Origin: a virus
IMG/VR virus record: IMGVR_UViG_3300010885_010611
Coordinates: 1-21,461 of that record
Length of the DNA stretch: 21,461 nucleotides
Strand: one strand, 5' to 3'
Positions 4,048 through 21,461 of this stretch are shown one piece after another. A program made the translations under genes and the position numbers. The notes below the pieces were generated by a model. That model made no database searches. It had not been told where the DNA came from and saw only the letters and a list, made by a program, of their open reading frames with translations. Position 1 is the first letter of the stretch, and the number at the start of each line of letters is the position of its first letter.

Positions 4048-4900
4048 AGATAAATTAGTATGGCTATTCGGCCTTGAAAAGTTTTTTAATTATATTAACG
4101 ACAACGAAAAGAAACGCTTTATAAGAAATATCATTAATTTAAATTACTCTATTGGCGAATCAAAACCTTGGCCATTGAAAGAGCTTATATCATATGACTA
4201 TCTGTCTTGTCAGGCTCAGGGTAGGGAAGATCGACTAAACTTTTATACCAATATATGTTCACACGATACACTATTTACAAATGAACTAATTGGGGTAATG
4301 CATTCAATTTGGCCCGATGATACATTAATAAAAAAACTATTTGAAATCAGTAACGTCACAGATGAATCAGTATTGACAACGGTGTTTAGTAAAAGTCAAG
4401 TATTGGGTAAAATTTGGATGGCTGAAGTATTGTCAAAATTTAAACTAAATTTCAACAATATATTACTAATTGGAGGATGGTTAAGTCATCATGATTTATT
4501 TCTAAAAGATATTATATACAATCAAATGTATTCTATTGATCCAGACGAGTCTATTAACGGTCTTGCAAAAATAATGAACCCTGGCATCATTATAGAAAAT
4601 AAAAATATTGAAGAATGTATAGATGCCCGTGGCAATTTTATGTTAGAAGGCTACATGATCGAGTTTGATTTAATTATTAATACAAGTACCGAGCATATGG
4701 ATAATACTTGGTTCAACAAACTTAAATCAGGAACAACAGTCTTAATTCAATCGAACAGTTCTGGCTTAAGTCCAGAGCATATCAACCCCAGTATTAATTT
4801 ACCAGACTTTATTAAAAAATATCCGTTGTCTGAATCATTCTTTAGAGGAGACATGTCTTTTCCTAACTATAAACGATTTATGAGCTATGGTATAAAATAA
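4040..4900 (+). CDS. Class I SAM-dependent methyltransferase-like protein
   Basis: 286 residues. A helical N-terminal region (1-135) precedes a Rossmann-like half. ILLIGGWLSHH (141-151) sits where the SAM-binding glycine loop would be, SIDPD (165-169) matches the acidic end of strand 2, and FDLIINTSTEHM (209-220) resembles the strand-4 block of phage class I methyltransferases. KLKSGTTVLIQSN (228-239) then looks like the following helix and strand. The glycine loop is atypical (GGW, not GxGxG), so SAM binding is probable, not certain. It overlaps the upstream gene by eight bases and its TAA shares one base with the next ATG, placing it in the same transcript as the glycosyltransferase-like and radical SAM genes. 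A methyl transfer to the shared product would fit the context. Confidence 0.55.
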   Translation: MNEDKLVWLFGLEKFFNYINDNEKKRFIRNIINLNYSIGESKPWPLKELISYDYLSCQAQGREDRLNFYTNICSHDTLFTNELIGVMHSIWPDDTLIKKLFEISNVTDESVLTTVFSKSQVLGKIWMAEVLSKFKLNFNNILLIGGWLSHHDLFLKDIIYNQMYSIDPDESINGLAKIMNPGIIIENKNIEECIDARGNFMLEGYMIEFDLIINTSTEHMDNTWFNKLKSGTTVLIQSNSSGLSPEHINPSINLPDFIKKYPLSESFFRGDMSFPNYKRFMSYGIK

Positions 4901-6072
4901 TGTATAAAGCAGATACAATTACTACAGTTCATTTAGAAGTTACTGAACGATGTAATGCCAGTTGCCCCCAATGTGCCAGAAACATCAATGGCGGTGAAGT
5001 TAATCCACAGTTACATGATGCTGAATTAACCTTAGACGATGTTAAAACAATATTAAAACCTGAGTTCATTAAACAATTAAAACGATTGTATATGTGCGGC
5101 AATTATGGTGATCCTATCAGCGCACGTGACACACTAGAAATATTTGAATACATTCGCAATCACAACGCTAAAATGCAACTTAGCTTTCATACAAATGCCA
5201 GCGCAAAGACTCCTGAGTGGTGGAGTAAGTTGCCAGCGGCTATGGGCAAAAGTCACTATGTTGTATTCAGTGTAGATGGCTTAGAAGATACTAATCACTT
5301 GTATCGACAAGGCACAGTATGGAAAAACATCATGCGTAATGCCGAAGCTTTTATTAAAGCAGGCGGTAGAGCACGTTGGGACTACATCGTATTTGGACAC
5401 AATGAACATCAAGTTGAAGAAGCTCGAGCATTAGCAGAGTCAATGGGCTTTGAAAAGTTCAATGTTAAAAAGTCTAATAGATTCTTTAGCAATACCAGAG
5501 GCGCAGTTAAAGCAGAACATCAAGCAGGCAATCGTAAAGGCAGCGAAACAACATTGCTAAGTATGCCCAAGAATCCTGAATATCATAATGCCGCATTAAA
5601 ACAATTAGAAACTTTAAGCAAAGACAAAGGCGAAGTTAAAATTGATTTTGTATCTACTGTAGCAGAATTAGAAGGCAAAATCGGCAATCAAAAATTTAAT
5701 CTAGATCCTGCTAATAAAAAAGACATGGAAAAGTATTGGGACTCGGTTGAAGTTAAATGTAAAGTTGCAGAAGAAAAAAGCATTTATATCACAGCAGAAG
5801 GATACTTACAGCCATGTTGCTGGACAGCAGGACAAATGTATGTTTGGTATTGGAAGCAACGTGGCGGACAGATATGGGACGCTATAGATGCCGCAGGATT
5901 AGAAACATTAGATCTACGTGTACATGACTTAAATGATGTTATTAATGGTAAGTTTATACAAGATGTAATTCCAGAATCATGGAATAAACCTAGTTGTGCT
6001 GAAGGCAAGTTGGCTGTCTGTGCCAAGACATGCGGCAATAAATACGATGCCTTTAAGGAACAATTCAAATGA
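4900..6072 (+). CDS. Radical SAM protein with C-terminal auxiliary-cluster (twitch/SPASM-like) domain
   Basis: 390 residues. The radical SAM 4Fe-4S motif is CNASCPQC (C18, C22, C25). The usual GGE SAM-amino motif is replaced by CGNYGDP (66-72). Later core blocks are FSVDGLEDTNHLYRQ (123-137) and FGHNEHQ (165-171). The C-terminal part carries C287, the pair C306-C307 (QPCCW), C366 and CAKTC (374-378), a pattern expected for at least one auxiliary Fe-S cluster, as in twitch/SPASM enzymes that act on peptides, sugars or other large substrates. Three other genes in the window (7037, 8101/8759 and 12051) share this layout. The substrate is unknown. The gene is coupled to its neighbours by a TAATG junction upstream and ATGA downstream. 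Confidence 0.9.
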   Translation: MYKADTITTVHLEVTERCNASCPQCARNINGGEVNPQLHDAELTLDDVKTILKPEFIKQLKRLYMCGNYGDPISARDTLEIFEYIRNHNAKMQLSFHTNASAKTPEWWSKLPAAMGKSHYVVFSVDGLEDTNHLYRQGTVWKNIMRNAEAFIKAGGRARWDYIVFGHNEHQVEEARALAESMGFEKFNVKKSNRFFSNTRGAVKAEHQAGNRKGSETTLLSMPKNPEYHNAALKQLETLSKDKGEVKIDFVSTVAELEGKIGNQKFNLDPANKKDMEKYWDSVEVKCKVAEEKSIYITAEGYLQPCCWTAGQMYVWYWKQRGGQIWDAIDAAGLETLDLRVHDLNDVINGKFIQDVIPESWNKPSCAEGKLAVCAKTCGNKYDAFKEQFK

Positions 6073-7040
6073 ATCCAATTAAAATATATAACAACAATAA
6101 TAGATTTGTAGTAGATTGGACTCTAAATACATTATGTACATATCAATGTAGTTATTGTCCTGATCATTTACATAACGGCATAAATTTTTTAAAAAATAAA
6201 ACAGATGATCCTGAAATAATTTATAATTTTTTAGTCAAACTGCGAGAAGAGTTAATGGGGAGGAGTGTTCATATATTCATCAATGGCGGCGAACCGACTA
6301 TTAGTCCTAGTTTAGAAACCATTATTGATTTTTGTAATGATACTGGTTGGTGTCTATATGTTAATACTAACTGTAGCAGAAGTATCGATTGGTGGAGAGA
6401 ATATGCTCCGAAAATATATAAGGTCACAGTTAGTTATCACCCCGAAAGTGCCGACGAAGAGATATTTGAAAAAATATCATTGATTGGCAGCGTTACTAAT
6501 GTAGGAGTATTTACATTAATGTATCCCGTCTCTCCTTTCTGGGAAAAATCTGTGTCAGCATTTGAACGTCTAAGAGAATTTCAAAATATCAGATTAGAGC
6601 CCAGTAGAGTATTTAAACGTGAAAAACGAGAAACAGAATCTATCAGCTATGAATATTCTGAAGAACAAATTCAATGGCTAAAAGATCACAGTAATCTAAA
6701 TATAGGACACTCTGTTATCGGTAAAATTCCACCACCATATAATTCGTTTGGTTCCACTTGGGTCGAAGACGCCGCTGGATATTCTACAAAATTCGATGAA
6801 GTAGAAACTGTAAACAATAGAAAAAATAAATTCACCGGATGGAAATGTAACATGGGCATGGATTATATTCATATAACCGATTCTGGACACATTTATCCAG
6901 CAGTTTGCACAGTTAAACCAGGTAGGATTTTTGAAGGGGATATTTTTAATTTTAAAGGATTAAGACGCTTACCTTCTACTTGCATAGAAGAATGGTGTAT
7001 GTGTACTAATGATGTATTAATCACTAAGTATAAAATATGA
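6069..7040 (+). CDS. Radical SAM protein, short-N-terminus GGEP type
   Basis: 323 residues. The cluster motif is CTYQCSYC (C23, C27, C30), directly after VDWTLNTL, and the SAM-binding motif INGGEPTISP (71-80) is canonical. The C-terminal third has scattered cysteines (GWKCNM, HIYPAVC, STCIEEWCMC) that could ligate an auxiliary cluster. It differs from the flanking radical SAM proteins, which have a G...DP motif in place of GGEP; its closest relative here is the incomplete gene at the right edge (similar V(D/S)WxLxxxCxYxCSYC and GGEPT). A good Shine-Dalgarno sequence, AAGGA at 6055-6059, lies nine bases before the ATG, and both ends are ATGA overlaps. The reaction is unknown. Confidence 0.88.
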   Translation: MNPIKIYNNNNRFVVDWTLNTLCTYQCSYCPDHLHNGINFLKNKTDDPEIIYNFLVKLREELMGRSVHIFINGGEPTISPSLETIIDFCNDTGWCLYVNTNCSRSIDWWREYAPKIYKVTVSYHPESADEEIFEKISLIGSVTNVGVFTLMYPVSPFWEKSVSAFERLREFQNIRLEPSRVFKREKRETESISYEYSEEQIQWLKDHSNLNIGHSVIGKIPPPYNSFGSTWVEDAAGYSTKFDEVETVNNRKNKFTGWKCNMGMDYIHITDSGHIYPAVCTVKPGRIFEGDIFNFKGLRRLPSTCIEEWCMCTNDVLITKYKI

Positions 7041-8104
7041 AAAATATCTACTTAACGACTTCTACTAAATTGCAATTTGAACTAAGTTCAATGTGTAATG
7101 CTCTTTGTTTGGGTTGTGTTAGAACTGACAGTAATTCATTTAACGAAAAGAAATACGTAATTCCTGATAAACAATATATAGAATTTGAAACTTTTAAAAA
7201 AATACTGCAAGCACCAGAATTTGCCACAGTTGAAGAATTAGAATTTTGTGGTACAATAGACGATCCATTAATGCATCCAGAATTCTTAGAATTTCTAGAC
7301 TTTGCTAGCACAGTTAAAAAATATAATATTATAATTCATACTAACGCAAGCCTACGTAGTAAATCGTACTGGAAAAAATTAGCAGAAGTTTTACTAAAAA
7401 ATGATAGGCATGTAGTTAAGTTTAGTATAGACGGCATGGAAGATACTAATCACATATATAGACAAAATACAACATGGTCGAAGATTATGGAAAATGCTCA
7501 AGCGTTCATTAATGCAGGTGGCAACGGTGGTTGGCAATTCTTAATATTTCCATGGAATGAACATCAATTAATGGATGCCAAAGCACTAAGCGTCAAAATG
7601 GGATTTAATGAGTTTATGAGTAGGCACGACAGGAGTGTTGCAACGAGTTTAGGTCTACAGCAAATTCAAAAAATTAAAATAACAAATGTAGAACGCAAAA
7701 CAGGTAAAAGCTCAATTGAAAGCACAAATCGAGCATTACACGACTCGGTAAATAATAGTATAGAATGTAACAATCAAAATAAAAAAATGTATTTTATAAG
7801 TTTTGATAGTAAGCTATGGCCTTGTTGTTTTTTGCATAACGGATTTATGAATATGGATAGAGGTCGAGCAGAAATACTTAAACAACGATTATATGATGTT
7901 TATAAAGACGATACATGGAACGATATTAGATTACATGGCATAGAAGAAATATTAAGCCATGAATTTTATACTAATGATTTAGTTGAAAGCTGGGATTCTA
8001 CAATTCATGGAATTAATAAAACTGATAGAATTCATAGGTGTACAGAAGTTTGTAATGTCAAGAAATTAGAAGTTTTACCAATAGGACAATATACAGTAAT
8101 ATGA
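7037..8104 (+). CDS. Radical SAM protein with C-terminal auxiliary-cluster domain
   Basis: 355 residues, the same architecture as the gene at 4900. The cluster motif is CNALCLGC (C20, C24, C27), the SAM-site block reads FCGTIDDPLMHPE, and later blocks are KFSIDGMEDTNHIYRQ, FPWNEHQ and, in the C-terminal domain, IEC, WPCCF and CTEVC. Similarity to the 4900 protein is strong in the core (DGxEDTNHxYRQ) and weak between the core and the C-terminal domain, which suggests different partners or substrates on a common scaffold (inference). No strong Shine-Dalgarno sequence precedes the ATG, so translation probably depends on coupling through the ATGA overlap with the upstream gene. Function unknown beyond radical SAM chemistry. 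Confidence 0.88.
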   Translation: MKNIYLTTSTKLQFELSSMCNALCLGCVRTDSNSFNEKKYVIPDKQYIEFETFKKILQAPEFATVEELEFCGTIDDPLMHPEFLEFLDFASTVKKYNIIIHTNASLRSKSYWKKLAEVLLKNDRHVVKFSIDGMEDTNHIYRQNTTWSKIMENAQAFINAGGNGGWQFLIFPWNEHQLMDAKALSVKMGFNEFMSRHDRSVATSLGLQQIQKIKITNVERKTGKSSIESTNRALHDSVNNSIECNNQNKKMYFISFDSKLWPCCFLHNGFMNMDRGRAEILKQRLYDVYKDDTWNDIRLHGIEEILSHEFYTNDLVESWDSTIHGINKTDRIHRCTEVCNVKKLEVLPIGQYTVI

Positions 8105-8787
8105 TAGATTTTAAAGTTTTACACGTCGGATTGACAAATCGTTGCAGGCTACTTTGTCCAGAATGCACAAGAACATCAAAAAATAACAAATATATTCATT
8201 CGATGTTTGATATTGATATTAAACACTTTAAAAAATTTCTAGTAGATTGTAGACCATGGGAGGTATTATTTTGCGGCAACTGGGGCGATCCGATTTATGC
8301 AGAAGATTTTCTTGGTCTTGTACGTGAAATAAAATCTACATACTCTCTTGCTAGAATAATTGTACATACAAATGGCACCGGCAAATCAACAAAGTGGTGG
8401 GAAGAATTTGCATCCTTATTAGGAAAAAATGACATTGTATTTTTTAGCATTGACGGGACTCCAGAGAATTATACAAAATATAGAATTAATTCTAAATGGG
8501 ATGATGTAGAAAATGCTATTAAGACATGTGTAGAAACATCTGCTAAATTAGATAAGAAAACAGAATTCTTTTGGAAACACCTTGTATTTTCTTACAATGA
8601 AAATACGATAATGGAATCATATAAAAAAAGTAAAGAGTTAGGCATTGGATTTCAGCTACAACATAGTATGGTATTCGGCAATGCAGCCCTTACAGAAACA
8701 GGTGGCGGAACATGGTTAAGACCTAGCCGGCCTTTCAGTGAAATAGAAGCAGAATTTAATGAACAAAAAAATAATACCTTATTGTAA
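8101..8787 (+). CDS. Radical SAM core, N-terminal part of a gene split by a frameshift
   Basis: 228 residues holding a complete radical SAM core: cluster motif CRLLCPEC (C15, C19, C22), FCGNWGDPIYAED in place of GGE, FFSIDGTPENYTKYR, and FSYNENT. It stops just where the paralogues begin their C-terminal cysteine domain. The missing domain lies in the next frame (8759-9076) and a one-base shift in the A run 8765-8771 joins the two into a 324-residue protein of normal family length. The last residues before the stop (NNTLL) match nothing in the paralogues. Either this is a real split or programmed shift, or the A run has a sequencing or assembly error. Without the C-terminal cysteines the protein would lack its auxiliary cluster. 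Confidence 0.82.
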   Translation: MIDFKVLHVGLTNRCRLLCPECTRTSKNNKYIHSMFDIDIKHFKKFLVDCRPWEVLFCGNWGDPIYAEDFLGLVREIKSTYSLARIIVHTNGTGKSTKWWEEFASLLGKNDIVFFSIDGTPENYTKYRINSKWDDVENAIKTCVETSAKLDKKTEFFWKHLVFSYNENTIMESYKKSKELGIGFQLQHSMVFGNAALTETGGGTWLRPSRPFSEIEAEFNEQKNNTLL

Positions 8788-9076
8788 ACAATACCCCGGT
8801 GCATTCATAGAATTTACCGGCTTAGTTGCCCCTTGCTGTTGGTTCATCTCAACTAAAAAATCGCATGATTATGCTGAAGAATATTTTGGAGAAGACTATA
8901 ATCGATTGTTTATTACTAATAGTAAAGAAGATATCATCAACGTTTATAAAAGAGTAGAAGACAGTTGGGAAACAGATACTCCATTTAGAACATGTTTAGA
9001 AATTTGCGGAGAAGATGTAACTAATCATCCACTTAAACGTAAAATTCAAGAACAAAATCCTCATACTCGAGGATAA
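8759..9076 (+). CDS. C-terminal auxiliary-cluster domain of the split radical SAM gene
   Basis: 105 residues beginning at an ATG that overlaps the upstream frame by 29 bases. The cysteine pattern repeats the C-terminal domain of the sister proteins: YCKQ (first Cys), LVAPCCWF (Cys pair), and CLEICGED, the conserved CxxxC. Reading through the A run in the upstream frame with a one-base skip places YCKQ exactly where the 4900 protein has KCKV. The ATG may be chance, since no convincing Shine-Dalgarno sequence precedes it; independent translation by reinitiation at the overlap cannot be excluded. Best read as the second half of one radical SAM enzyme, not as a separate small protein. Confidence 0.75.
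   Translation: MNKKIIPYCKQYPGAFIEFTGLVAPCCWFISTKKSHDYAEEYFGEDYNRLFITNSKEDIINVYKRVEDSWETDTPFRTCLEICGEDVTNHPLKRKIQEQNPHTRG
8764..8772 (+). other. Homopolymer frameshift site (seven A) within the split radical SAM gene
   Basis: Codons CAA AAA AAT in the upstream frame span an A run at 8765-8771. A lysine tRNA on AAA can re-pair one base forward on AAA, and deletion of one A would fuse the two frames. The required shift is +1 (equivalently -2), not the common -1. Transcript slippage or a sequencing indel would give the same result. Confidence 0.6.
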
Positions 9077-9090: not shown

Positions 9091-9109
9091 CATGTTAAAT
9101 ACTAACATG
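9091..9109 (+). promoter_or_regulatory. Perfect inverted repeat enclosing two candidate start codons
   Basis: CATGTTA (9091-9097) and TAACATG (9103-9109) are perfect reverse complements around a five-base loop, AATAC. In the mRNA the 7-bp stem would pair the ATG at 9092 with the ATG at 9107, hiding both candidate starts of the following radical SAM gene. The stem is AT-rich and modest in strength; a regulatory role is an inference. Confidence 0.4.
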
Positions 9110-10507
9110 ACAACTCCAAGTAAAACATTTTGTATCCTACCATGGGTACATCTAAGTACACGACCTAACGGACATATGCGTGTATGCTGTACTGCTAATG
9201 CTAGTTCAGTGGGTCCAACCAATGACAAAGAACACGGAGGAGAAGTCGGCATTCTTAAAAATGCCGACGGTAAACCTGCCAATCTTAATCACACAGACTT
9301 TTTAAGTAGTTGGAATAATGACTACATGAAGAATACTAGACTTAAAATGCTGGCAGGTGAAGAGCCGCCTAGTTGTACTAAGTGCTATAAAGAAGAACGT
9401 GAAGGACATAAATCCAAACGCGAATGGGAAACAAAATATTGGAGCGAACGTGTTGATCTAGATAAACTACTATCTGATACACAAGAAGATGGCAGCGTTC
9501 CTCCACATATTGCTTATATCGACATGCGCTTTGGCACTAAATGTAATTTAGCCTGTGTTATGTGTAGCCCGCACGATAGCAGTTTATGGGTTCCCGAGTG
9601 GCAACAAATGTATCCTAAAGTACAAAATGCAACACTTAAAGATAGTATGCAATGGGGTAATAAAGGCAAAGAGAATGGTGCTAGTTATAACTGGCATAAA
9701 AACAATCCTCAGTTTTGGGAACAGTTATGGGAACAGATCCCTAACATGAAGCAGTTATACTTTGCAGGTGGCGAACCTCTTATTATCGAAGAACATTATG
9801 CCATTCTGGAAGAATGTATCAAGCGTGGTTATGCCAAGGACATGGAAATTCGTTATAACAGTAACGGTGTCGAATGGCGTGAAGACTTGTTTGAATTATG
9901 GAGTCACTTTAAATTAGTTCGTTATCATTATAGTGTTGATGCCATTGAAGATAGAAATGATTATATTCGTTACCCGAGTAAATGGGAACGAAACCTAGAA
10001 GCGTTTAAGCAGTTAGATAACGAAACAGGAAAAAATGTAGAGATTTCAATCGCTTGTGCTGTGCAAGCATTGAACATTTATTATATTCCAGAGTTTCTAA
10101 AATGGAAACTACAACACGGATTTAAGAAGATTAACATGTGGCCATTTGGTGCTGGTGGTGTTAACTATCACTTTGTTTACCATCCGCCACATTTAAATGT
10201 TAAAATATTGCCAGCATGGTTTAAAGACGAAATTGAACGCAAATATGAAGAGTTTATCCCATGGTGGAAAGCAAATTGGCAACTAGGCGTACCAAAATGG
10301 CACGAAGGTCGAGTCACAGAAGAACAATGGCTTAATGCTGATTATGGAATTAGCAGACTGCGTGGTATGGTTAAGTTTGCTAAAAGCGAAGACTGGAGTA
10401 ATCGTTTACCTGAGATGAAAGAATACTTAGAGTTATTAGACAAGCAACGTGGTACTGATTTTTATACCACATTTCCTGAAATGAAAGATATTTTTAAAGA
10501 TGTTTGA
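9107..10507 (+). CDS. Radical SAM protein with N-terminal twitch-like domain
   Basis: 466 residues from the ATG at 9107. An upstream in-frame ATG at 9092 is possible, but starting at 9107 lines up MTTPSKTFC with MTKDSKTFC of the 13109 gene, with cysteines at 9 and 27 in both; neither start has a clear Shine-Dalgarno sequence. The N-terminal domain has FCILPWVH, CC (27-28) and CTKC (90-93), the ligand set of an auxiliary Fe-S cluster. The core follows: CNLACVMC (C146, C150, C153), FAGGEP (GGEP at 221-224), and YSVDAIEDRNDYIRY. About 190 further residues (PAWFKDEIERKYEEF, TTFPEMKDIF) resemble the end of the 13109 protein. It matches the family named twitch-domain-containing radical SAM proteins, common in marine phages; the substrate is unknown. 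Confidence 0.9.
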   Translation: MTTPSKTFCILPWVHLSTRPNGHMRVCCTANASSVGPTNDKEHGGEVGILKNADGKPANLNHTDFLSSWNNDYMKNTRLKMLAGEEPPSCTKCYKEEREGHKSKREWETKYWSERVDLDKLLSDTQEDGSVPPHIAYIDMRFGTKCNLACVMCSPHDSSLWVPEWQQMYPKVQNATLKDSMQWGNKGKENGASYNWHKNNPQFWEQLWEQIPNMKQLYFAGGEPLIIEEHYAILEECIKRGYAKDMEIRYNSNGVEWREDLFELWSHFKLVRYHYSVDAIEDRNDYIRYPSKWERNLEAFKQLDNETGKNVEISIACAVQALNIYYIPEFLKWKLQHGFKKINMWPFGAGGVNYHFVYHPPHLNVKILPAWFKDEIERKYEEFIPWWKANWQLGVPKWHEGRVTEEQWLNADYGISRLRGMVKFAKSEDWSNRLPEMKEYLELLDKQRGTDFYTTFPEMKDIFKDV

Positions 10508-11237
10508 AGGTAAAACATTAATAGGAGTAGGTTGTAGCCATGTTCTTGGAGAACTAATGGGCGATTACGATCCAATAACTTGCCATGAGAGAAGCTGGGT
10601 TAAGAAATTAGAACGTCTCGGCAATTTTAAAAATAGTATCAATTTGGCTGAACCTGGAAGTAGCAACAAACGTTCATATCGAATAATAATAGATTATTTA
10701 AAAAAATATAATGAATCTACTAGCAATTTAGTTGTAATAATTTCTCTTACTCAGTTATCTAGATATGAATTTTGTTATACAGAGCTGCCACCACACGGTG
10801 AGACTAATTTTTTAAATATAGGAAGTTGGATGATATCTAATAATGATATTTCTAATCGAGAAGAATGGATAAAAAGAAATCCTAAACGTATGGTAGAATT
10901 TATAGAAACGTATTATACTAATTTTCACAATGATGTTAATGATATATCAGAGATTAATAACAATACATTAATGCTACATACTTTATTGCAGGCACTTAAT
11001 GTAGAGCATTATTTCTTTGAAATGATTTGTCCTCCAGGAACAATTACACAAGAACAACTTGGTTTACATATTCCAATGATAAACTTTAAAAATAATTTAG
11101 GTTATAAAATTAATGCAAAAGATTACTTGTGGGAAAAAGGTCAAAAGCCGGAAAAATGTATGCATTGGGATCATGCCGGCAATGAGTTTTTAGCAGATTA
11201 CATGTTAAAACATATAAAGGAATATTATCATGGTTGA
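10500..11237 (+). CDS. SGNH/GDSL hydrolase-like protein
   Basis: 245 residues. LIGVGCSHVLG (8-18) fits block I of SGNH hydrolases with the nucleophile Ser at 13; EPGSSNKR (51-58) fits block II (Gly and Asn for the oxyanion hole); the C-terminal HWDHAGNEFLADYM (222-235) resembles the terminal Asp/His block. No signal peptide is seen, so it would act in the infected cell. Members of this superfamily remove or transfer acyl groups on sugars, lipids and peptides, which fits a position among sugar-modifying and oxygenase genes. The match is by short motifs only and the overall length is normal for the group. The start overlaps the upstream stop by eight bases. Confidence 0.6.
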   Translation: MFEGKTLIGVGCSHVLGELMGDYDPITCHERSWVKKLERLGNFKNSINLAEPGSSNKRSYRIIIDYLKKYNESTSNLVVIISLTQLSRYEFCYTELPPHGETNFLNIGSWMISNNDISNREEWIKRNPKRMVEFIETYYTNFHNDVNDISEINNNTLMLHTLLQALNVEHYFFEMICPPGTITQEQLGLHIPMINFKNNLGYKINAKDYLWEKGQKPEKCMHWDHAGNEFLADYMLKHIKEYYHG

Positions 11238-12054
11238 TTTAGAATATGTCCCGGGAGATAACTTAGTTAAAGAGTTTATTCCCGTTGATCCTATAGAGCA
11301 TCCAAAGTGGATGAGCACCTGGAGTGACAGTAGCTATGCAGTTGACAATGTATTTGATGAAGAAGATCTAATTTGGTTAGAAGATTTAATGCATCGCAAA
11401 CATCGAAGTCGCAGAGTTAAACGCAACGGAACATTACACTTCAATGTAGACAATAAACGTATACAAAATAAATTCTTTGATAAACTAAAATCAGTTATTC
11501 CTGAAATAACCAACGAAACAATATGGGAAGGTAATTTCTTAATTACAGCTACACCTTATAATTTACATATTGACACTGGCAATCCTAATACACTAAAAGA
11601 TAGTGATAGTGTTCCTGGAAAACAATTTATTATTCCGTTATGGGTATGCGATAAAAACAAAAGCGAAAGTATGGAATTGGACTGCGGAACTGCTATTTTT
11701 AAAAACAGATTCCTAATGTACGGAACAAATTTTGCCAAAGGTGACCCTAAGTATGATACAAATGTATTCTATACGGTGCGTAAGTACGATGATTTAGTAT
11801 GCTATCATAGAGATGGAAGTATATGGGAAGTTGATTGGAACAAACAAACAATCAGCGATGAAATATACAACAGATATTTTAGACATTTTAATAAAAAATG
11901 GTTGGAAGGTTTTGAACTAGAAGGCATTTATAATTGGAAACGTGGCGGCATTATTGTCTTTGATCGTTGTCAAGCACATGCAGGTGTTAATTTCCCAGCC
12001 AGTGGCGTAACCATGAAGTGCGGGTTGAGTATGATGACTACTATTGCAAAATGA
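11230..12054 (+). CDS. 2-oxoglutarate/Fe(II) oxygenase-like protein
   Basis: 274 residues. YNLHIDTGNP supplies the HxD iron pair (H113, D115) and CQAHAGVNF the distal His (H250). K263, in VTMKCGLSMM, is in the position usually taken by the Arg or Lys that holds 2-oxoglutarate. Between them lies about 130 residues, somewhat longer than in compact members. GGIIVFDRCQAH is the typical strand leading to the distal His. Likely chemistry is hydroxylation or a related oxidation of the cluster's product; the substrate is unknown. The Shine-Dalgarno sequence AAAGGA (11216-11221) lies eight bases before the ATG, and the gene overlaps its neighbours by eight bases upstream and four downstream. Confidence 0.68.
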   Translation: MVDLEYVPGDNLVKEFIPVDPIEHPKWMSTWSDSSYAVDNVFDEEDLIWLEDLMHRKHRSRRVKRNGTLHFNVDNKRIQNKFFDKLKSVIPEITNETIWEGNFLITATPYNLHIDTGNPNTLKDSDSVPGKQFIIPLWVCDKNKSESMELDCGTAIFKNRFLMYGTNFAKGDPKYDTNVFYTVRKYDDLVCYHRDGSIWEVDWNKQTISDEIYNRYFRHFNKKWLEGFELEGIYNWKRGGIIVFDRCQAHAGVNFPASGVTMKCGLSMMTTIAK

Positions 12055-14368: not shown

Positions 14369-16363
14369 AAAGTTTTCAACTTTACTATAAAGTTCAGGCA
14401 ATGACTCTTTACAAGAGTTGTTTCTAATTTTATCTATTTCAGTAACGTATTGCATCAAGTCCTTAGCATCGGATTTATTTCCTTTAGCACGTTTGATAAA
14501 CTGTATTAGTTTACCTACATTTGCTTTGATACCTTCTGGAATTTCTGGCAAGTCGGGATGAACAGTTGTAAAATTAATTTGATAATCCTCGCACCAGTTT
14601 AATACATTGTTGTAATATGTGCTTGGCAAAATTCCCATATTAACGTAGTGCGGATCAAATGCAGGCTGGAGTTTAAAAAAGCCGTCCGATGTATCTGCTT
14701 CTTTTACTTCGCCATAAAGCATATTAGTATAAATTATTTCATTACCGGAGTCTTTGTATTTGTCTACCCACCACGTTATTAATTTAGGCAGTTCTAATAC
14801 GTTAAGAACACTTAAAGTGGTAGACATGATAACATTAATGTTAGAGTTAGTAGCACCTTGTTTAAGCCAAAAGTCAATAGCATTGCTCACAGTTTGTTTT
14901 GTATCGCCAAACCATTTACTACCATAGCGTATATAATCGTTGGCAGCACCGTAGGCATCTATACTAAGATTCAATTGTATATTTTTAAATTTAATTAGAT
15001 TTTCTAGCAGTTTAGGGCTAGGAATATAACTACAATTGGTATAAATCTCTAAGCTAACATTTTCAGGATGTCCTTGCTCGCATACTAGGTCAATGAATTT
15101 AGTAAACTCTGGATTAATCATCGGTTCTCCGCCAGTAAACTTAATTAACTTTAATGTTTTAAGTGTTTGTTTGTCGGGCGCAAATTTAACGTTATCTAAC
15201 TTAGGAAATAGCCAACGTTTTACTTTTTCGTCAACTACTTTATTAAGTTTAACTTCGTCGTCGTGCCAAGTAGTACTCAATGTACTATTACAAGTTAAAC
15301 AAGCAAGATTACAATAGTTACCAAATCCTATTTCTAAAAAGTCAATTCTTGGTTTTTCATATGACGGTTTCTTATGTAAATAACCTCCGTTATATAATAC
15401 ACTAGAACCCAATCGCATTGATGTTGCAACTTCGCCTTCATTTTGTTCTTCTTTGTAACATTTATGACAGCCTGATATAGGCAAGTTTTCTATTGTATTA
15501 TTTCTTGCCTCATCCCAATACTCTCCAAAAAATGACTGTTCCATCGTAGTTGTTTGTATGGGTGCTTCTTCCCTAATAGGAAATAATTTAACTAAATCTG
15601 TGTTTGTTTTTGCCGCTTCTGGACTCAGTACATCAAATTCTTTACGCTCTTTGAGTATATCAAATCTACAGCAAAGTTTGGCTTGCCCGTTTGGTTTGTA
15701 TTGAATATGCATCCATGGTAATATACAGAAAGCAGGATTTAATTTTGCATATAACTTGCCTGCATAATCCTCATAGGGTTTATTATTATTGTCTGCTAGT
15801 TGTATTAGTGTCGGATGCCCTTTAAACTTTTTCATCCATAGCAAGTGCAAGATATTGTTTATTGATTCTAAATAAGTTTCTTTATCATAATCATTTGGAT
15901 TAAAATCTAATTTTAAAAATTGTCTACTAGAAACTTTATCTAGTTTTGATAAATTTAAAAGGAAAGTTAAAAACTTTTTATTATCATTAATTACATCTAT
16001 TTCTAAGTAAGTAAACTTTTGTTTTTTAAAATATTCCCAAGCGTCTATAAATTGATACTCACTGTCTTTTTTAAAAGAAACTACCTTGATTTTATTAATT
16101 AGTTTATCAGTAATTTCATCTATGCTATCTATACCGTTCCAGTTTAATAGTTCTTGAAATTTATGAATATTAGTAATATTTTTATCGTAGACAATAAATT
16201 CAAATTCTTTATTAGTGTCTCTGGCATCAATGTCATATCTATGTGTTCTTAAGAAAAAAGAAAATAGACTATCTGCAGTACCGATAAATCTTTCAAACGT
16301 ATCACTGACTAGTCCTCTCCTAGTTTCTACGATTTCTTGAGTTATTATTTTATATTGTTTCAT
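14351..16363 (-). CDS. Large radical SAM protein: unknown N-terminal extension, twitch-like domain, radical SAM core
   Basis: 670 residues, the longest protein here. Residues 1-205 form an extension with no recognised motif, rich in charged and aromatic residues and without cysteine; no relative is in the window. A twitch-like domain follows: AFCILPWMH (C213), CC (231-232) and CHKC (299-302). The core has CNLACLTC (C351, C355, C358), FTGGEP (GGEP at 411-414), SIDAYGAANDYIRYGSKW, and an end (TTVHPDLPEI) like the other N-twitch proteins. The leftward start overlaps the upstream stop as ATGA with no visible Shine-Dalgarno sequence. The extension may bind a substrate or leader (inference). Function unknown beyond radical SAM chemistry. 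Confidence 0.9.
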   Translation of the reverse strand: MKQYKIITQEIVETRRGLVSDTFERFIGTADSLFSFFLRTHRYDIDARDTNKEFEFIVYDKNITNIHKFQELLNWNGIDSIDEITDKLINKIKVVSFKKDSEYQFIDAWEYFKKQKFTYLEIDVINDNKKFLTFLLNLSKLDKVSSRQFLKLDFNPNDYDKETYLESINNILHLLWMKKFKGHPTLIQLADNNNKPYEDYAGKLYAKLNPAFCILPWMHIQYKPNGQAKLCCRFDILKERKEFDVLSPEAAKTNTDLVKLFPIREEAPIQTTTMEQSFFGEYWDEARNNTIENLPISGCHKCYKEEQNEGEVATSMRLGSSVLYNGGYLHKKPSYEKPRIDFLEIGFGNYCNLACLTCNSTLSTTWHDDEVKLNKVVDEKVKRWLFPKLDNVKFAPDKQTLKTLKLIKFTGGEPMINPEFTKFIDLVCEQGHPENVSLEIYTNCSYIPSPKLLENLIKFKNIQLNLSIDAYGAANDYIRYGSKWFGDTKQTVSNAIDFWLKQGATNSNINVIMSTTLSVLNVLELPKLITWWVDKYKDSGNEIIYTNMLYGEVKEADTSDGFFKLQPAFDPHYVNMGILPSTYYNNVLNWCEDYQINFTTVHPDLPEIPEGIKANVGKLIQFIKRAKGNKSDAKDLMQYVTEIDKIRNNSCKESLPELYSKVENFLKDAS

Positions 16364-17865
16364 ACTACATCAGTTGCTAGATGAGTTAAAAACTCATTAA
16401 ATTCTTGTAAGAGTTGAAGATCAGTTCCTGGATCTTTATAGTCAACTATACCTTGACAGTTATTCTTTTGTAAATGTTTTGCCACAGAACCTAGTTGATT
16501 TCTAAGTGTTTTATATCCATAGGCAATAACATTACTTCTCCAACCTGCAATATCGCTTAAACATAGATAGACATTACTATCTTTAATTTGTTTAGTAACC
16601 ATCCAAGGCTCTGCCAAAATATCTGCATGAATGAATACATGTTTGAGTTTCTTAAACTCTAACCAAGTCTGTTCTAATTCTTCTTCACTGTTAAAGTTTT
16701 TAAGTATGTCTAAATATGCATCATCGAAAGTATTCATAGAACTCATATGAAAGCAATTAGGATGTTTAAATTTTTCTTGATAATGTAATTTAATAGAATC
16801 TAAGAGTATAGTAAAATGACTTCTAGTGCCATCCCATTCTTCGACTATTTGTTTTCTGATGTCCACACATCCTTTGATAATATCAAAATGCACTACTTGT
16901 TTAATAGCAACATCTTTTGGTTTTTTAGAATAGATAATAACATCTTTAAAGCCACTACATGGCAGCATTAATGTATCAACAGCACCCATGTTATTGTAAA
17001 ATACATCTGTGAATCTCTCTACAATGTAATCTTCTGTATTACGAATAAAGCATCCCCAAGTAATAGTATCAATTCTAATAGGAGTTTTAGCAGGCATTAC
17101 AGTTTGTAATACTTTAAGATATTGGTCAGATAATTTTGGCATCATATATAAGCTATGCCAAAAATCATTAAACATCTTTGGATTATTTTCCGGATACATG
17201 TACGTTTGACTTTGTCTAATTTCGTTGCTTAGATTGTAAACAGACATATTGTTTTTCAATGATACGTCAATAATATTCCAACCTTTTTTAACAGGAGTAT
17301 TAGATAAGGTTGTATTTGGATTAATTACTAATGGAGTGTAATTGTCGTGTATATTTTCTGTGCCTCTATTGGGAACAATATGTTCTATAGGAGTTAACTG
17401 CTGTTGTCCCCAATCTGGACAGTCAAGCTCTCTCCACTTCTTTAAATTAACAATAGCAGTAATAGGAAACAAGTAAAAACTACCCTTCCATTTATCTGCT
17501 TCCGGGTCATTAAACATTTTTCTGTTTTCGTATTGATCCATAATTTGACCCGATACTAACCAATTACCGTTTGTTTTTTCATTTAAGTCATTTACATGTT
17601 TGATACATGCTTCGTGATAATAGTATATGTTTGGTATAGTTCCTTCCCAAGTTAGGATAAGATAGTCATAGTTATTATGACTTTCGGCAGTTTCCTTAAT
17701 TGCATCATCTTCGGTTTCGGCAATAGTAACTAATGAAGGAAGTTTAACAATGTCTATATAAATATTTCTTTTATGAAATATCTTTAAACTTTGTCTAATA
17801 TCTTCATTTAAACCTATGTTGCTTTTGTCGTATATCAACGCATTAGAAATGCGGGTATTATTCAT
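16360..17865 (-). CDS. Conserved-looking protein of unknown function
   Basis: 501 residues from the ATG at 17865, which overlaps the upstream stop by eight bases and is preceded by GGAAG about seven bases away. An in-frame ATG at 17931 would add 22 residues lying wholly inside the upstream gene. The N-terminal half has NYDYLILTWEGTI, WLVSGQIMDQYENR and FYLFPITAIVNLKKW, a pattern that could be a sugar- or nucleotide-binding fold. The second half has MLPCSGFKDVIIYS, VVHFDIIKGCVDIRKQIVEEWDG and LCLSDIAGWRSN, suggesting a second alpha/beta domain. No membrane segment or signal peptide is seen. I do not recognise the family. Its place between an oxygenase and a radical SAM gene on one transcript suggests a part in the same pathway. 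Confidence 0.8.
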   Translation of the reverse strand: MNNTRISNALIYDKSNIGLNEDIRQSLKIFHKRNIYIDIVKLPSLVTIAETEDDAIKETAESHNNYDYLILTWEGTIPNIYYYHEACIKHVNDLNEKTNGNWLVSGQIMDQYENRKMFNDPEADKWKGSFYLFPITAIVNLKKWRELDCPDWGQQQLTPIEHIVPNRGTENIHDNYTPLVINPNTTLSNTPVKKGWNIIDVSLKNNMSVYNLSNEIRQSQTYMYPENNPKMFNDFWHSLYMMPKLSDQYLKVLQTVMPAKTPIRIDTITWGCFIRNTEDYIVERFTDVFYNNMGAVDTLMLPCSGFKDVIIYSKKPKDVAIKQVVHFDIIKGCVDIRKQIVEEWDGTRSHFTILLDSIKLHYQEKFKHPNCFHMSSMNTFDDAYLDILKNFNSEEELEQTWLEFKKLKHVFIHADILAEPWMVTKQIKDSNVYLCLSDIAGWRSNVIAYGYKTLRNQLGSVAKHLQKNNCQGIVDYKDPGTDLQLLQEFNEFLTHLATDVV

Positions 17866-18598
17866 AAATTTTCTTCCAAGTTTGGTAATTATTATTAATT
17901 CTATTAGACCAGCTATCTCCTGCCCAGCCATGTGCTATAATATGATATCGGTCTTCGTTGCTGTGATTGTACACACAGTGAACATTATATAAATTTAGTT
18001 TAATTGCTCGTCCTTGTTCCCATGGCAAGTAACCAATGTTATCCATATAGAAATGACAATCTTTGGGATGATTAATAGCAACATTAATAGGCCCGATATG
18101 ATTTTCATCCTGTGTTAAACTATCTTTGTGCGGAACAATCCATCCGCCCGGTTCCAATTTCATAATACGTATTCTAAAGTATTTTTTGTAATCAAATTGA
18201 TCTTTAAAGAATTCTCGAATAGTCGGACACCAATCTGCTACGTCGGTCCAACGCCAAGGGGCGTCTACATCAGTATAACCATATGTATGACTACTTTCTG
18301 TGTGTACACTACTAAGACCGTGTATGCATAAACTACTCCAGCCGGCATGTAGTTCATGACTTCTATGTTGAACATAATGCTTTTGTAAACGTTTGGCTTC
18401 AAATAACATTTGTTCCCAATCTGCAGAGTCTTTCCAGTCGTCTATTGGTAAAAACGGAATGTCACTGGACATGTTAACGTCTCTGCCTGAGGTTAATTCT
18501 TGCGGGTATTTTACTTTGGCAGGATAGTTATTTCTTTCGGCAAATAATTTTGGGTCTTCTCCGCTTACACCATATTCGTTTACTAAATCGTCTGCCAT
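17858..18598 (-). CDS. Aspartyl/asparaginyl beta-hydroxylase-like 2OG-Fe(II) oxygenase
   Basis: 246 residues. EPGGWIVPHKDS (149-160) carries the HxD pair (H157, D159); GPINVAINHPKDCHFYM (169-185) is the family's central strand block; VHCVYNHSNEDRYHIIAHGW (206-225) supplies the distal His (H207) and the Arg (R217) that grips 2-oxoglutarate. These fit the AspH family, which hydroxylates amino-acid side chains in proteins, free amino acids or peptide natural products. The first 110 residues are less typical. It is the first gene of the leftward unit: GGAGA at 18603-18607 (minus strand) lies four bases before the ATG, and a near-consensus late promoter core lies further up. It is unrelated in layout to the oxygenase at 11230. 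Confidence 0.78.
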   Translation of the reverse strand: MADDLVNEYGVSGEDPKLFAERNNYPAKVKYPQELTSGRDVNMSSDIPFLPIDDWKDSADWEQMLFEAKRLQKHYVQHRSHELHAGWSSLCIHGLSSVHTESSHTYGYTDVDAPWRWTDVADWCPTIREFFKDQFDYKKYFRIRIMKLEPGGWIVPHKDSLTQDENHIGPINVAINHPKDCHFYMDNIGYLPWEQGRAIKLNLYNVHCVYNHSNEDRYHIIAHGWAGDSWSNRINNNYQTWKKIYE

Positions 18599-18625: not shown

Positions 18626-18631
18626 TTTATC
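18624..18631 (-). promoter_or_regulatory. T4-type late promoter core, leftward
   Basis: Read on the minus strand this is GATAAATA, seven of eight bases of the late consensus, 25 bases before the leftward start at 18598. It overlaps the rightward core, so the two form the near-palindrome TATAAATATTTATC (18618-18631). Confidence 0.5.
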
Positions 18632-18647
18632 TGCGTATATAATAATT

Positions 18648-18654
18648 TAAGGAG
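18648..18654 (+). promoter_or_regulatory. Strong ribosome binding site of the nitroreductase-like gene
   Basis: TAAGGAG, five bases before the ATG at 18660; the best Shine-Dalgarno match in the window, consistent with the first gene of a transcript. Confidence 0.8.
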
Positions 18655-18659
18655 AGAAA

Positions 18660-19403
18660 ATGTCCACAGTAAACGAATTAATTAAATCTAGGTTTACAAC
18701 TAGATTAATGACTGATGAAATCAGCGAAGATGATGTTCAAACTATTTTAGATAGTGCTCGTCGTGCTCCAAGTAAAAACAAAATTTATGGTTATAAAGTG
18801 TTTGCACTAACAGACTCTGCTGTAGGTAAGCGTCTTAAAAAAGAATTGTGTGATAATATCACAACCTGTGAAGATGAAGACGGTAAAGATATATATCTAT
18901 TACAAACCAAAGCACCGTTGGTATTACTTTATGTAACAAATCCAGCACCCGAACATCAAATGGTTGACCTAATCGAAAATGATGGAACTGAAGTATATGA
19001 CAAAGTCTACAGTGAAGTTAAAAGCCCAGTATCTAAATATGTTATGGTCAAAGGTGCAGTTCGTGATGCTATGATTAGTGCCACATATGCACAATTAACA
19101 GCAGAAGACCTAGGTTATGGCACAGCATTTGTTGCCTGCGGCATGGAAGATGTACTATCTAATAAACAATTTGTTAGATTGCTGGCAAAAGAATTTGGCG
19201 ATGATTTTGCATCACAGCCTATTGAAGCAGTAGTTGCAATTTGCATTGGTCCAAAAGATAAAAAGATTGTAGATCTTTATGCAGGTAAAGAAGTTTCTAA
19301 TAAAGAAGAATATCTAGACGGTGAGACACATTTCAAACGTGGCGGTCGCGAAGAAAGTTTCTTCATTAATCAAAAGCAAGAAACTATGATAGTTAGTGTA
19401 TGA
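18660..19403 (+). CDS. Nitroreductase-family (FMN-dependent) protein
   Basis: 247 residues. SRFTTRLMTDEISEDDVQTIL (10-30) corresponds to the R-R-S-x-R N-terminal FMN-phosphate region (R11, R15); ARRAPSKNKIYGYKVFAL matches the family's APSxxNxQPW block; RDAMISATYAQLTAEDLGYGTAFVACG is the conserved helix and turn near the flavin. Typical members are 170-220 residues; the extra length lies in the middle (about 60-110) and the C-terminus. The family reduces nitro groups and quinones, and some members dehydrogenate peptides or desaturate rings in natural-product pathways. It opens the second rightward unit with a late promoter and strong ribosome binding site, and is coupled by ATGA to a radical SAM gene. 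Its electron source and substrate are unknown; feeding electrons to the radical SAM enzymes is one possibility. Confidence 0.8.
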   Translation: MSTVNELIKSRFTTRLMTDEISEDDVQTILDSARRAPSKNKIYGYKVFALTDSAVGKRLKKELCDNITTCEDEDGKDIYLLQTKAPLVLLYVTNPAPEHQMVDLIENDGTEVYDKVYSEVKSPVSKYVMVKGAVRDAMISATYAQLTAEDLGYGTAFVACGMEDVLSNKQFVRLLAKEFGDDFASQPIEAVVAICIGPKDKKIVDLYAGKEVSNKEEYLDGETHFKRGGREESFFINQKQETMIVSV

Positions 19404-20593
19404 TCAATGAAACTTACTGTTCTAAAAGCTGGACAGATATTAATATCAATTTTGAATTAAGATCAGTAAGCCATTGCTGTAAGGCTATTCCGCATCAGTT
19501 TCCTGATAAGCTAACAGAAGATTTTATTAGTAGAAATGAGTTTATAACAGATAGAAGAATTATAAGTTTAAAAAATATTGCTCATACTGATTGCAACAAC
19601 TGTTGGAATGACTATGATAAAGGCAATAGTGCCTTCCGTGAATGGGCTAATAAATGGGATTCTTCATTTATTAAAAATAAAGACCTAACGGACGATAAAC
19701 ATGTTAATTATATAGAAATTAGACCAGATAGAACCTGCGATATGAGTTGTATATATTGTTGGTCTGGAAGTAGCAGTAAAATTGCACAAGAAGAAGGTAT
19801 TACAATAAATGATAATACCAACGAAGATGACTATATAGTTTTTAAATCATGGATTAAGAATCATTTAGAACGTGATGATTTAGAACAAAAAGAAATAATC
19901 TTTATTTTCTTAGGCGGTGAACCAACCGCCAGTGAACGTTTCTATGACTTGGTAGATTACATAGAAACAGTATCAAATAATAAAAATGTTCGTTTAGAGA
20001 TTTGTACTAATGCTAATAGTAAACAGTTTTTAATGGATAAGATTATTGATAAGATGTCAAAAAGTAAACTCAAATGGGGAATAGGTATTAGCAACGAAAG
20101 CTACGGAGAAGATGCAGAACTTATCAGATACGGCCTGGATTGGAATAGATTCAAGGAAAACTTTGTTCGTTATATACAGCACCCTAAAACAGAATTAATT
20201 GTATTGAGTCCTACAGTTAACATTTTTAATTTAAAAAGTTTTCCCGAATATATATCATGGGTCTATGAACAATTCAAAACTCATGCGCCTAATAAAGAAT
20301 TTACATGGTATGGAAACTTTATAAGTTGGCCCAATGAATTAGACATTGCAAACCTTCCGATATATTATCTTAAATACATAGAGCAAGCTAAAAGAGTTGT
20401 ATTAGACAATATAGAAGATTCTAATCATATATACACAGAAAATTTTATTACTTTCTTAGACAATATGATACTTAGAATAGGAACAGCATACGATGATAAC
20501 TATAAACAACAAGCACAAGAGTACTTAGAAAAAAAGCAAGTGACTAAAAGAACAACCAAATTAATTAAACTAATGGATAACTTAGACTTATGA
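19400..20593 (+). CDS. Radical SAM protein with N-terminal twitch-like domain
   Basis: 397 residues. N-terminal cysteines: YCSKSW (C7), SHCCKA (26-27) and CNNC (65-68), the same spacing class as the 9107 and 14351 proteins though the FCxxPxxH block has become YCSKSWTD. The core has CDMSCIYC (C113, C117, C120), FLGGEP (GGEP at 172-175) and GISNESYGEDAELIRYGLDW, where the SIDG block of its relatives has diverged to GISNES. It lacks the PEM/PEL tail block of the other N-twitch proteins. The start is an ATGA overlap with the nitroreductase-like gene. Substrate unknown. Confidence 0.88.
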   Translation: MINETYCSKSWTDININFELRSVSHCCKAIPHQFPDKLTEDFISRNEFITDRRIISLKNIAHTDCNNCWNDYDKGNSAFREWANKWDSSFIKNKDLTDDKHVNYIEIRPDRTCDMSCIYCWSGSSSKIAQEEGITINDNTNEDDYIVFKSWIKNHLERDDLEQKEIIFIFLGGEPTASERFYDLVDYIETVSNNKNVRLEICTNANSKQFLMDKIIDKMSKSKLKWGIGISNESYGEDAELIRYGLDWNRFKENFVRYIQHPKTELIVLSPTVNIFNLKSFPEYISWVYEQFKTHAPNKEFTWYGNFISWPNELDIANLPIYYLKYIEQAKRVVLDNIEDSNHIYTENFITFLDNMILRIGTAYDDNYKQQAQEYLEKKQVTKRTTKLIKLMDNLDL

Positions 20594-20823
20594 TAGACCT
20601 TGACACTATGCCCTTAAGAATGCTACAATTAGAAGCCGCTAGAATTATTAGTAGCATGGAAGCAACTAATGATAACATATATAAGTTTAACAAAGAAAGC
20701 AGACACGATAGTACAGGTTGGTACAAGGCTGCTATTACTTGGTATGTTAAAGAATATGGTGGCATGCCTAGCGAAGTAGGACCGGGTAAAGAAATAAAAT
20801 TTATATACGAACAAAATGAGTGA
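20590..20823 (+). CDS. Small protein of unknown function between two radical SAM genes
   Basis: 77 residues, no cysteine, no signal peptide, no membrane segment. A helical N-terminal half (MLQLEAARIISSMEA) is followed by an aromatic stretch (TGWYKAAITWYVKEYGG) and a glycine/proline segment (GGMPSEVGPGKE). It has an ATGA overlap with the upstream gene and an eight-base overlap with the next, so it is very likely translated. I do not recognise it. It could be a small partner, a carrier or, less likely, a peptide substrate of the adjacent radical SAM enzymes; nothing in the sequence decides this. Confidence 0.65.
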   Translation: MIDLDTMPLRMLQLEAARIISSMEATNDNIYKFNKESRHDSTGWYKAAITWYVKEYGGMPSEVGPGKEIKFIYEQNE

Positions 20824-21461
20824 TTTAAAAACAAGCGAATATGACTTTACTAAGATTCCTTTTAGCAACTTAGTTAGAGTAGGCCAACGAACAATGCTAT
20901 ACCGCGATATGTTTACTGTATCATGGCTACTAGGACGCTACTGTAACTATCGTTGCTCCTATTGCTGGCCATATGCTCGCAGTGATACAAAGGATCACCG
21001 TCCTACACCATTAATGTTACATACTGTAGATGAGATTAAACGTCAAGCTAGAGAAAATGGATTTAACAGTTTCCACTTTAGTCTAAGTGGCGGCGAACCT
21101 ACATTCCATCCTGCTTACATTGATATTTTAAATCATTTAAACAATGATGCTGCCAATACAAACTATACCAGTGTACACATGACTAGTAATATGAGTCGCC
21201 CTATGAAATGGTTTGAAGAACAATATGTGCCAGCAGTTAAGAACTTTCATCGTGCTAGTATCACAGCCAGCTGTCATCGTGAACATGTCGACACTGATAA
21301 GAAGGTAGAAGAGTTTGCTGACAAGTTAGTACTATGTCAAGAGTATGACACACAAATAACTATCAACATGGTTATGGTTCCGGAACAGTTTAATGAGATA
21401 TATGATTTAAGTTTGTACTTTCATAATAGAGGTATTAACGTTACAATCAAGCCACAATGCG
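20816..21461 (+). CDS. Radical SAM protein, short-N-terminus GGEP type (3' end outside window)
   Basis: The first 215 residues are present, starting at an ATG that overlaps the upstream stop by eight bases. The cluster motif is CNYRCSYC (C43, C47, C50) after VSWLLGRY, and SLSGGEPTFHPA (89-100) is a canonical SAM-binding motif. A block SVHMTSNMSRPMKWFEE follows, then ASITASCHREHVD, resembling VTVSYHPES in the 6069 protein. The frame stays open to the last base. With the 6069 gene it forms the third radical SAM type of the window. The C-terminal domain and any auxiliary cysteines are out of view. Confidence 0.9.
   Translation, partial: MSDLKTSEYDFTKIPFSNLVRVGQRTMLYRDMFTVSWLLGRYCNYRCSYCWPYARSDTKDHRPTPLMLHTVDEIKRQARENGFNSFHFSLSGGEPTFHPAYIDILNHLNNDAANTNYTSVHMTSNMSRPMKWFEEQYVPAVKNFHRASITASCHREHVDTDKKVEEFADKLVLCQEYDTQITINMVMVPEQFNEIYDLSLYFHNRGINVTIKPQC

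Follow-up and report, generated by a model that had tools for sequence, protein, structure and literature searches.

Phage islands rich in radical S-adenosylmethionine (SAM) genes have been on record since 2010, with no established function. The T4-like Campylobacter phages CP220 and CPt10 possess 11-12 radical SAM genes and a five-gene block that is exchanged as a module (PMC2853527). A marine T4-like genome, TARA_ERS488813_N000010, possesses 12, which were attributed to Fe-S metabolism (PMC5332604), and the host recognition clusters of pelagimyophages, variable islands beside tail-fibre genes, combine glycosyltransferases with radical SAM cassettes (PMC7029224). Here we present a linear IMG/VR record of 21,461 bp (IMGVR_UViG_3300010885_010611, the whole of which we call the window). 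It covers 21.5 kb of a variable island carried by a very large, uncultured phage of the T4 superfamily and holds ten radical SAM genes, R1 to R10. Three of these (R1, R5 and R10, one from each of three domain layouts), together with the glycosyltransferase-like genes G2, G3 and G4 and the methyltransferase-like gene G5, form a core that phages share with the bacterial phylum Bdellovibrionota, and the other seven radical SAM genes are accessories, patchy and exchanged. The available portions of the three reports describe neither a core shared with Bdellovibrionota nor a split radical SAM gene.

The window resembles CP220 and CPt10 in being T4-like and radical-SAM-rich, but the identity is ~25% over half of R1 only, and the radical SAM genes of the Campylobacter phages are associated with a putative glycine amidinotransferase. 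No R5- or R10-like match was found in them. The marine T4-like genome is similar in the kind and number of its genes, a likeness taken from its partly available description, in which no system or core is defined. The cultured Pelagibacter phage Mosig (L225) has MoaA-like genes and a carbamoyltransferase near tail-fibre genes at 54-72 kb of its record; in the same region are two Asp_Arg_Hydrox genes, two nitroreductases, methyltransferases, a UDP-Ara4N-type aminotransferase and an epimerase. The carbamoyltransferase, Asp_Arg_Hydrox, nitroreductase, methyltransferase and MoaA-like genes are held in common with the window, but Mosig is 141 kb long and the large relatives of the window are 212-257 kb. 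No R5 or R10 ortholog was found in Mosig or the other pelagimyophages. A first-pass annotation of the window had judged such a density of radical SAM genes very unusual in a phage; with these precedents the judgement is too strong. The density is also not special to this contig, since 83 related loci of ~21 kb hold from 1 to 13 ORFs (open reading frames) with the CX3CX2C motif, with a median of 8.

Searches of IMG/VR gave 149 related stretches for R5 and 519 for R1. Across these loci the order CbT-G2-G3-G4-G5-R1-...-R5-...-R10 recurs, where CbT is a carbamoyltransferase gene, and the intervening genes vary. Orthologs were scored with a 40% identity threshold in the 50 R5 loci that span 20 kb or longer; some of these are near-duplicate contigs, so that the counts are not independent. 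R1 was present in 46 of the 50, G2 in 38 and R10 in 32, the last being possibly outside the fetched flank in some loci. G20, a small gene, had an ortholog in 24 and CbT in 14. The accessory radical SAM genes were found in 7 (R2), 13 (R3), 5 (R4), 10 (R6), 13 (R7), 10 (R8) and 5 (R9) of the loci. Clustering at 40% identity sorted the radical SAM proteins from all loci, 1104 in number, into 198 clusters, of which 107 were singletons, and the clusters holding R1, R5 and R10 rank among the four largest. R5 is 58-95% identical across phages, and full-length R10 orthologs from phages and Bdellovibrionota are 55-96% identical. In an alignment of R1 with its phage and Bdellovibrionota orthologs, C18/C22/C25 and C287/C306/C307/C374/C378 are invariant. 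The ratio of nonsynonymous to synonymous substitution (dN/dS) against relatives was 0.03-0.15 for the testable genes, indicating purifying selection (CbT and R1 0.04-0.05, R5 0.03, G12 0.04, R6 0.07); these values are rough because synonymous sites are near saturation, and they leave out R2, R4, R8 and R9, for which no relative fell within the identity range, and R3, which gave no usable dS. The conserved co-occurrence in other contigs that the first-pass annotation had proposed as a check is thus seen for R1, R5 and R10 plus the glycosyltransferase-like and methyltransferase-like genes. Its suggestion of a multi-step system survives as a linked, selected cluster with a conserved three-radical-SAM core; the ten genes are not one conserved set, as seven are patchy. 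A core with one enzyme per layout is easier to reconcile with three separate reactions than with redundancy.

Bdellovibrionota are a phylum known for predatory bacteria. A profile scan of genome contigs with the R5 alignment gave 32 loci, mostly from metagenome-assembled genomes (MAGs) of this phylum, with ~53-63% identity to R5; because the scan used only two peptide patterns, this taxonomic range is a lower bound. Some of these loci are on contigs of 0.35-0.94 Mb. Relatives of R1, R10, G2/G3/G4 and G5 adjoin the bacterial R5, in rearranged order and orientation. Among 241 genomes of the phylum, R5 (>600 bits) was detected in 14 and R10 in 16, and R10 was present in 14 of the 14 R5-bearing genomes, always on the same contig and at most 3.2 kb away; one such pair is on a contig of 1.6 Mb. 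The hypergeometric probability of this co-occurrence is ~7e-21, with kinship ignored. The flanking genes include housekeeping genes, for example those for a tRNA synthetase and YceG, and the Bdellovibrionota loci are therefore chromosomal. In a tree of R5 rooted on R5-like paralogs, the viral sequences nest within those of Bdellovibrionota, which suggests that R5 was transferred from bacteria to phage, a reading of the tree that calls for caution about long branches. In the R10 and R1 trees, which are unrooted and have long outgroup branches, the Bdellovibrionota sequences stay together and the pairings L194+L196, L193+L195 and L188+L191+L192 are repeated. Five further loci (L197, L199, L202, L203 and L180) were binned as Rickettsiales, Gammaproteobacteria, Acidimicrobiaceae, Chloroflexi and Neisseriaceae MAGs. 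They partly group with viruses or have phage-type neighbours (L180 by gene content) and are probably viral contigs inside MAG bins. A literature search on Bdellovibrio and radical SAM enzymes turned up no title relevant to this locus.

The genes of the window are as follows.

CbT, 134..1606, plus strand: NodU/CmcH-type carbamoyltransferase, accessory (PF16861 183.5 bits, PF02543 119.6 bits; phrog_1601, Nol-like carbamoyltransferase).
G2, 1631..2371, plus strand: glycosyltransferase-like, core (31% identity to G3 and to G4; relative beside the bacterial core).
G3, 2346..3365, plus strand: GT-A-fold glycosyltransferase-like, core (DxD with D84 and D86 invariant in the alignment).
G4, 3358..4047, plus strand: third paralog of G2 and G3 (alternative GTG start possible at 3325).
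G5, 4040..4900, plus strand: predicted class I SAM-dependent methyltransferase fold, core (predicted structure; relative beside the bacterial core).
R1, 4900..6072, plus strand: radical SAM, layout A, with C-terminal auxiliary cysteines, core (PF04055 41.5 bits).
R2, 6069..7040, plus strand: radical SAM, layout B, accessory (PF04055 26.6 bits, below cut-off; CTYQCSYC).
R3, 7037..8104, plus strand: radical SAM, layout A, accessory (PF04055 29.8 bits).
R4, 8101..8787, plus strand: core half of a split layout A radical SAM, accessory (PF04055 31.6 bits).
R4b, 8759..9076, plus strand: separate SPASM/twitch-like auxiliary-cluster half in the +1 frame, with its own ATG.
R5, 9092..10507, plus strand: N-terminal-twitch radical SAM, layout C, core (NF033640 429 bits).
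G11, 10500..11237, plus strand: DUF6071-like, accessory (PF19547 20.5 bits, below the cut-off of 27).
G12, 11230..12054, plus strand: possible 2-oxoglutarate-Fe(II) dioxygenase, accessory (HxD...H by sequence reading alone; no family match in profile searches).
R6, 12051..13112, plus strand: radical SAM, layout A, accessory (PF04055 40.5 bits).
R7, 13109..14368, plus strand: N-terminal-twitch radical SAM, layout C, accessory (NF033640 321.8 bits; N-terminal SPASM, PF13186 39.1 bits).
R8, 14351..16363, minus strand: N-terminal-twitch radical SAM, layout C, accessory (NF033640 249.7 bits over residues 210-659, after an N-terminal extension of ~200 residues).
G16, 16360..17931, minus strand: accessory, no family above cut-off in profile searches.
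G17, 17858..18598, minus strand: aspartyl/asparaginyl beta-hydroxylase family (Asp_Arg_Hydrox), accessory (PF05118 35.6 bits, cut-off 22.6).
NR, 18660..19403, plus strand: nitroreductase family flavoprotein, accessory (PF00881 30.7 bits, cut-off 23.5).
R9, 19400..20593, plus strand: N-terminal-twitch-like radical SAM, layout C, accessory (NF033640 167.7 bits).
G20, 20590..20823, plus strand: conserved 77-residue protein, phage-side partner (by conservation in relatives).
R10, 20816..21461, plus strand: radical SAM, layout B, core, truncated by the contig end (PF04055 55.1 bits).

All genes except the R8-G16-G17 block are on the plus strand. The gaps between called genes are only 24, 15 and 61 nt, the genes otherwise overlapping or abutting, and there is consequently no space for an additional gene of normal size.

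The ten radical SAM cores that the first-pass annotation had read are all present, and every one belongs to a long ORF that matches PF04055 (Radical_SAM), nine of them above the gathering score of 29.5 bits and R2 below it. The coordinates that it gave for them are starts or ends of genes; the CX3CX2C motifs characteristic of the superfamily are at 4951, 6135, 7094, 8143, 9542, 12102, 13484, 15313 (minus strand), 19736 and 20942, and for R5 the position given, 9107, is an internal ATG of an ORF that opens at 9092. A six-frame scan of the window gave a single extra motif match, on the minus strand at 5526, outside any gene. Chance motifs would not all fall inside long ORFs that match Radical_SAM, nor would the testable genes show purifying selection, and this explanation was rejected. 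A [4Fe-4S] cluster and 5'-deoxyadenosyl radical chemistry are predicted for all ten proteins.

The three layouts noted earlier were recovered by BLASTP as paralog groups: A (R1, R3, R4 and R6), B (R2 and R10) and C (R5, R7, R8 and R9), with 22-33% identity within groups. The radical SAM core is N-terminal in group A, and in group C it is preceded by a SPASM/twitch-like domain. Group A (4900-6072, 7037-8787 and 12051-13112) shows a variant SAM-binding motif, CGNYGDP, CGTIDDP, CGNWGDP or SGVYGDP, and groups B and C show GGEP at this position. The NCBIfam model NF033640, whose name (twitch domain-containing radical SAM protein) denotes a subfamily without assigning it a function, has a cut-off of 170 bits, which is exceeded by R5, R7 and R8 and missed by ~2 bits by R9; R1, R2, R3, R4, R6 and R10 fall outside. 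The opinion that the ten genes do not reflect gene amplification is half right: none of the copies is recent, yet every layout corresponds to a single paralog family. With one family per layout and four genes in or bordering NF033640, the set probably arose by ancient duplication or by recruitment inside families.

In R4 the radical SAM core and the auxiliary-cluster domain appear to be encoded by separate overlapping genes. The overlap of R4 with R4b, which is in the +1 frame and has its own ATG, is 29 or 41 nt in the window and in five distinct relatives. Recurrence in these relatives, which have differing A-runs, disfavors a sequencing error; programmed frameshifting is possible. G20 directly precedes R10 in the window and R1 in other phages. 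It is conserved end to end, with 45-91% identity in 22 relatives, had no family match in profile searches and was not found beside the core in the Bdellovibrionota loci.

The partner proteins of the core were characterized largely by their predicted structures. G2, G3 and G4 are paralogs that align with an invariant DxD. The AlphaFold2 model of G3 (mean predicted local distance difference test score, pLDDT, 88.8) has a GT-A fold and matches the PBCV-1 capsid glycosyltransferase 2p72 with an E-value of 8e-4 and many glycosyltransferases with Z 9-11 (VIA). By its fold and its DxD, G3 is GT-A glycosyltransferase-like and its activity is predicted. The G5 model (pLDDT 91.9) has a class I methyltransferase fold, resembling BioC (Z 16.6) and NodS (Z 16.1). 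Profiles of G3, G5 and R5 compared with the sequences of solved structures (PDB) gave nothing useful. The NodS resemblance and the NodU/Nol-type carbamoyltransferase recall the tailoring of Nod factors; nevertheless, CbT scores 142.8 bits against the NodU equivalog NF041651, whose cut-off is 1000 bits, reaching the cut-offs of the broader carbamoyltransferase Pfam domains, and class I methyltransferase folds are generic.

The window has no near-identical DNA match among cultured phages. Six large contigs (212-257 kb) among its relatives carry 17-19 Radical_SAM matches each and two others (232 and 251 kb) carry 7-8; with up to 19 such genes in large relatives, the window is only part of a larger island. 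It could have been a chimeric assembly, as the first-pass annotation had allowed. In two contigs from other IMG/VR datasets, L001 (43 kb) and L002 (90 kb), the genes from the carbamoyltransferase through R9 follow almost the same order, which shows that the window is not chimeric. A T4-type Gp23 is present in 12 of the 15 records examined, and that of one relative is 66-70% identical to Gp23 of PA5oct, GAP32 and Vibrio phage 2.275.O, all large T4-like phages. The 251-kb record of L076 (G003) combines four matches to Gp23, one of them interrupted by internal stops, with only 7 Radical_SAM matches, and may be chimeric or harbor a second phage.

In three large relatives (G001, G002 and G004) the island is flanked by nucleotide-sugar and polysaccharide genes, including nucleotide-sugar epimerases, dehydratases, an RmlC-like isomerase, UDP-glucose dehydrogenases, DegT aminotransferases, TylF and a C-methyltransferase. 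In G004 the island, at ~36-60 kb, is followed by sugar genes at 60-75 kb and then, at 80-97 kb, by virion and baseplate genes that include a tail-fibre-like ORF, a 2910-residue virion protein and baseplate wedge genes. This relative therefore has the arrangement of a phage host recognition cluster, a variable island and sugar genes adjoining tail and baseplate genes; the window stops before this border. Within 15 kb of the bacterial R5 we observed at least 13 family-2 glycosyltransferases (PF00535), compared with 1.55 expected, an enrichment to be read with the caveat that glycosyltransferases cluster by nature. In Vibrio phage K566 a radical SAM group is near PagP.

Our preferred explanation, which we hold with modest confidence, is that the island carries out radical-based tailoring of an unusual surface glycan. 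The product of the core would be an unusual sugar or a group linked to a glycan. A nucleotide sugar, a lipid-linked sugar or a sugar-attached amino acid would undergo C-H chemistry by the radical SAM enzymes, whether oxidation, epimerisation, deoxygenation or C-C bond formation, the GT-A proteins would transfer the modified sugar group, G5 would methylate it, and the carbamoyltransferase and accessories would vary the product. Most likely the phage would use this product to remodel the glycan on the envelope of the cell that it infects and thereby exclude competing phages; in the main variant of this scheme it would decorate its own virion. Radical SAM enzymes that act on sugars or aminocyclitols have precedents in BtrN, NeoN, AprD4 and DesII. 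A more specific proposal, which we offer tentatively as a possibility somewhat short of probable, is that R1, R5 and R10 are an undescribed three-radical-SAM surface-glycan pathway common to Bdellovibrionota and large T4-like phages, in which the changing extra radical SAM enzymes diversify the product in conflicts over surface receptors.

Several observations weigh against the tailoring of a surface glycan. In searches of profile libraries the radical SAM proteins of the window matched no characterized sugar-acting enzyme, the best named matches being generic, and SPASM/twitch radical SAM enzymes are more often peptide-acting. The GT-A and methyltransferase assignments come from predicted folds, with no sequence match in the PDB. 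Some bacterial core loci are situated among housekeeping genes, and the family-2 glycosyltransferases counted within 15 kb come from only 6 of 12 bacterial loci, a lower bound. Adjacency to baseplate genes was mapped in one relative only (G004), and the Gp23 comparison names no host for the phage.

The rival that survives best, although we consider it unlikely, is maturation of a protein or peptide in the manner of ribosomally synthesised and post-translationally modified peptides, with a peptide or phage structural protein modified at one residue per enzyme and G20 as substrate or carrier. SPASM/twitch-type layouts are typical of peptide-modifying radical SAM enzymes, the small G20 is conserved beside R10 and R1, and G17 belongs to an Asp/Asn hydroxylase family. 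But the overlapping and abutting genes leave the window no room for an extra precursor, although a substrate may be encoded elsewhere. G20, the sole small conserved ORF, is conserved throughout, is cysteine-free in the window copy and was not found beside the Bdellovibrionota core. Further, no window radical SAM protein reaches the cut-off of a peptide maturase equivalog.

We regard as distinctly less plausible the biosynthesis of a small molecule or cofactor, aminocyclitol- or siderophore-like, that would aid infected cells or harm competitors, with glycosylation and carbamoylation as its tailoring steps. Carbamoyltransferase, methyltransferase, glycosyltransferase, nitroreductase and aminotransferase genes are also found in natural-product clusters. 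Against this, we saw no scaffold synthase in the window, the neighbors in relatives are nucleotide-sugar genes and the bacterial core is near family-2 glycosyltransferases. Improbable as well is a drifting store of host genes with no joint function, linked merely by insertion into a plastic region. The patchiness of seven of the ten radical SAM genes and the many singleton clusters are what such a store would produce, but the low dN/dS is not, and three radical SAM genes stay linked in phages and Bdellovibrionota despite rearranged order and orientation; for the core genes this explanation is disfavored. A 7-deazaguanine-type modification of DNA or tRNA, protecting the phage genome, is very improbable, as the weak QueE-like matches of R2, R8 and R10 miss the cut-off (R2, 30.4 vs 206 bits) and no QueC was found above cut-off in ten large relatives.

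G008, near 192 and 205 kb, and G004, at 13.6 kb, have weak QueC-like matches that do not reach the cut-off and possibly represent other ATP-pyrophosphatase-type enzymes. Two further candidates were rejected. R2 (39.3 bits) and R10 (41.9 bits) miss the 180-bit cut-off of NF038283 for prokaryotic viperin, the PADLOC hits being weak and partial, and for a main role in phage Fe-S supply, an A-type carrier is present in only 3 of 9 relatives.

The separation of a fixed core from exchangeable extras, combined with its occurrence in bacteria, reduces these islands to a small tractable set, R10-R5-R1 with a glycosyltransferase-like and a methyltransferase-like gene. If the core does serve to tailor a surface glycan, it would offer a route to new radical sugar chemistry and would mean that a phage remodels the cell surface with oxygen-sensitive enzymes.

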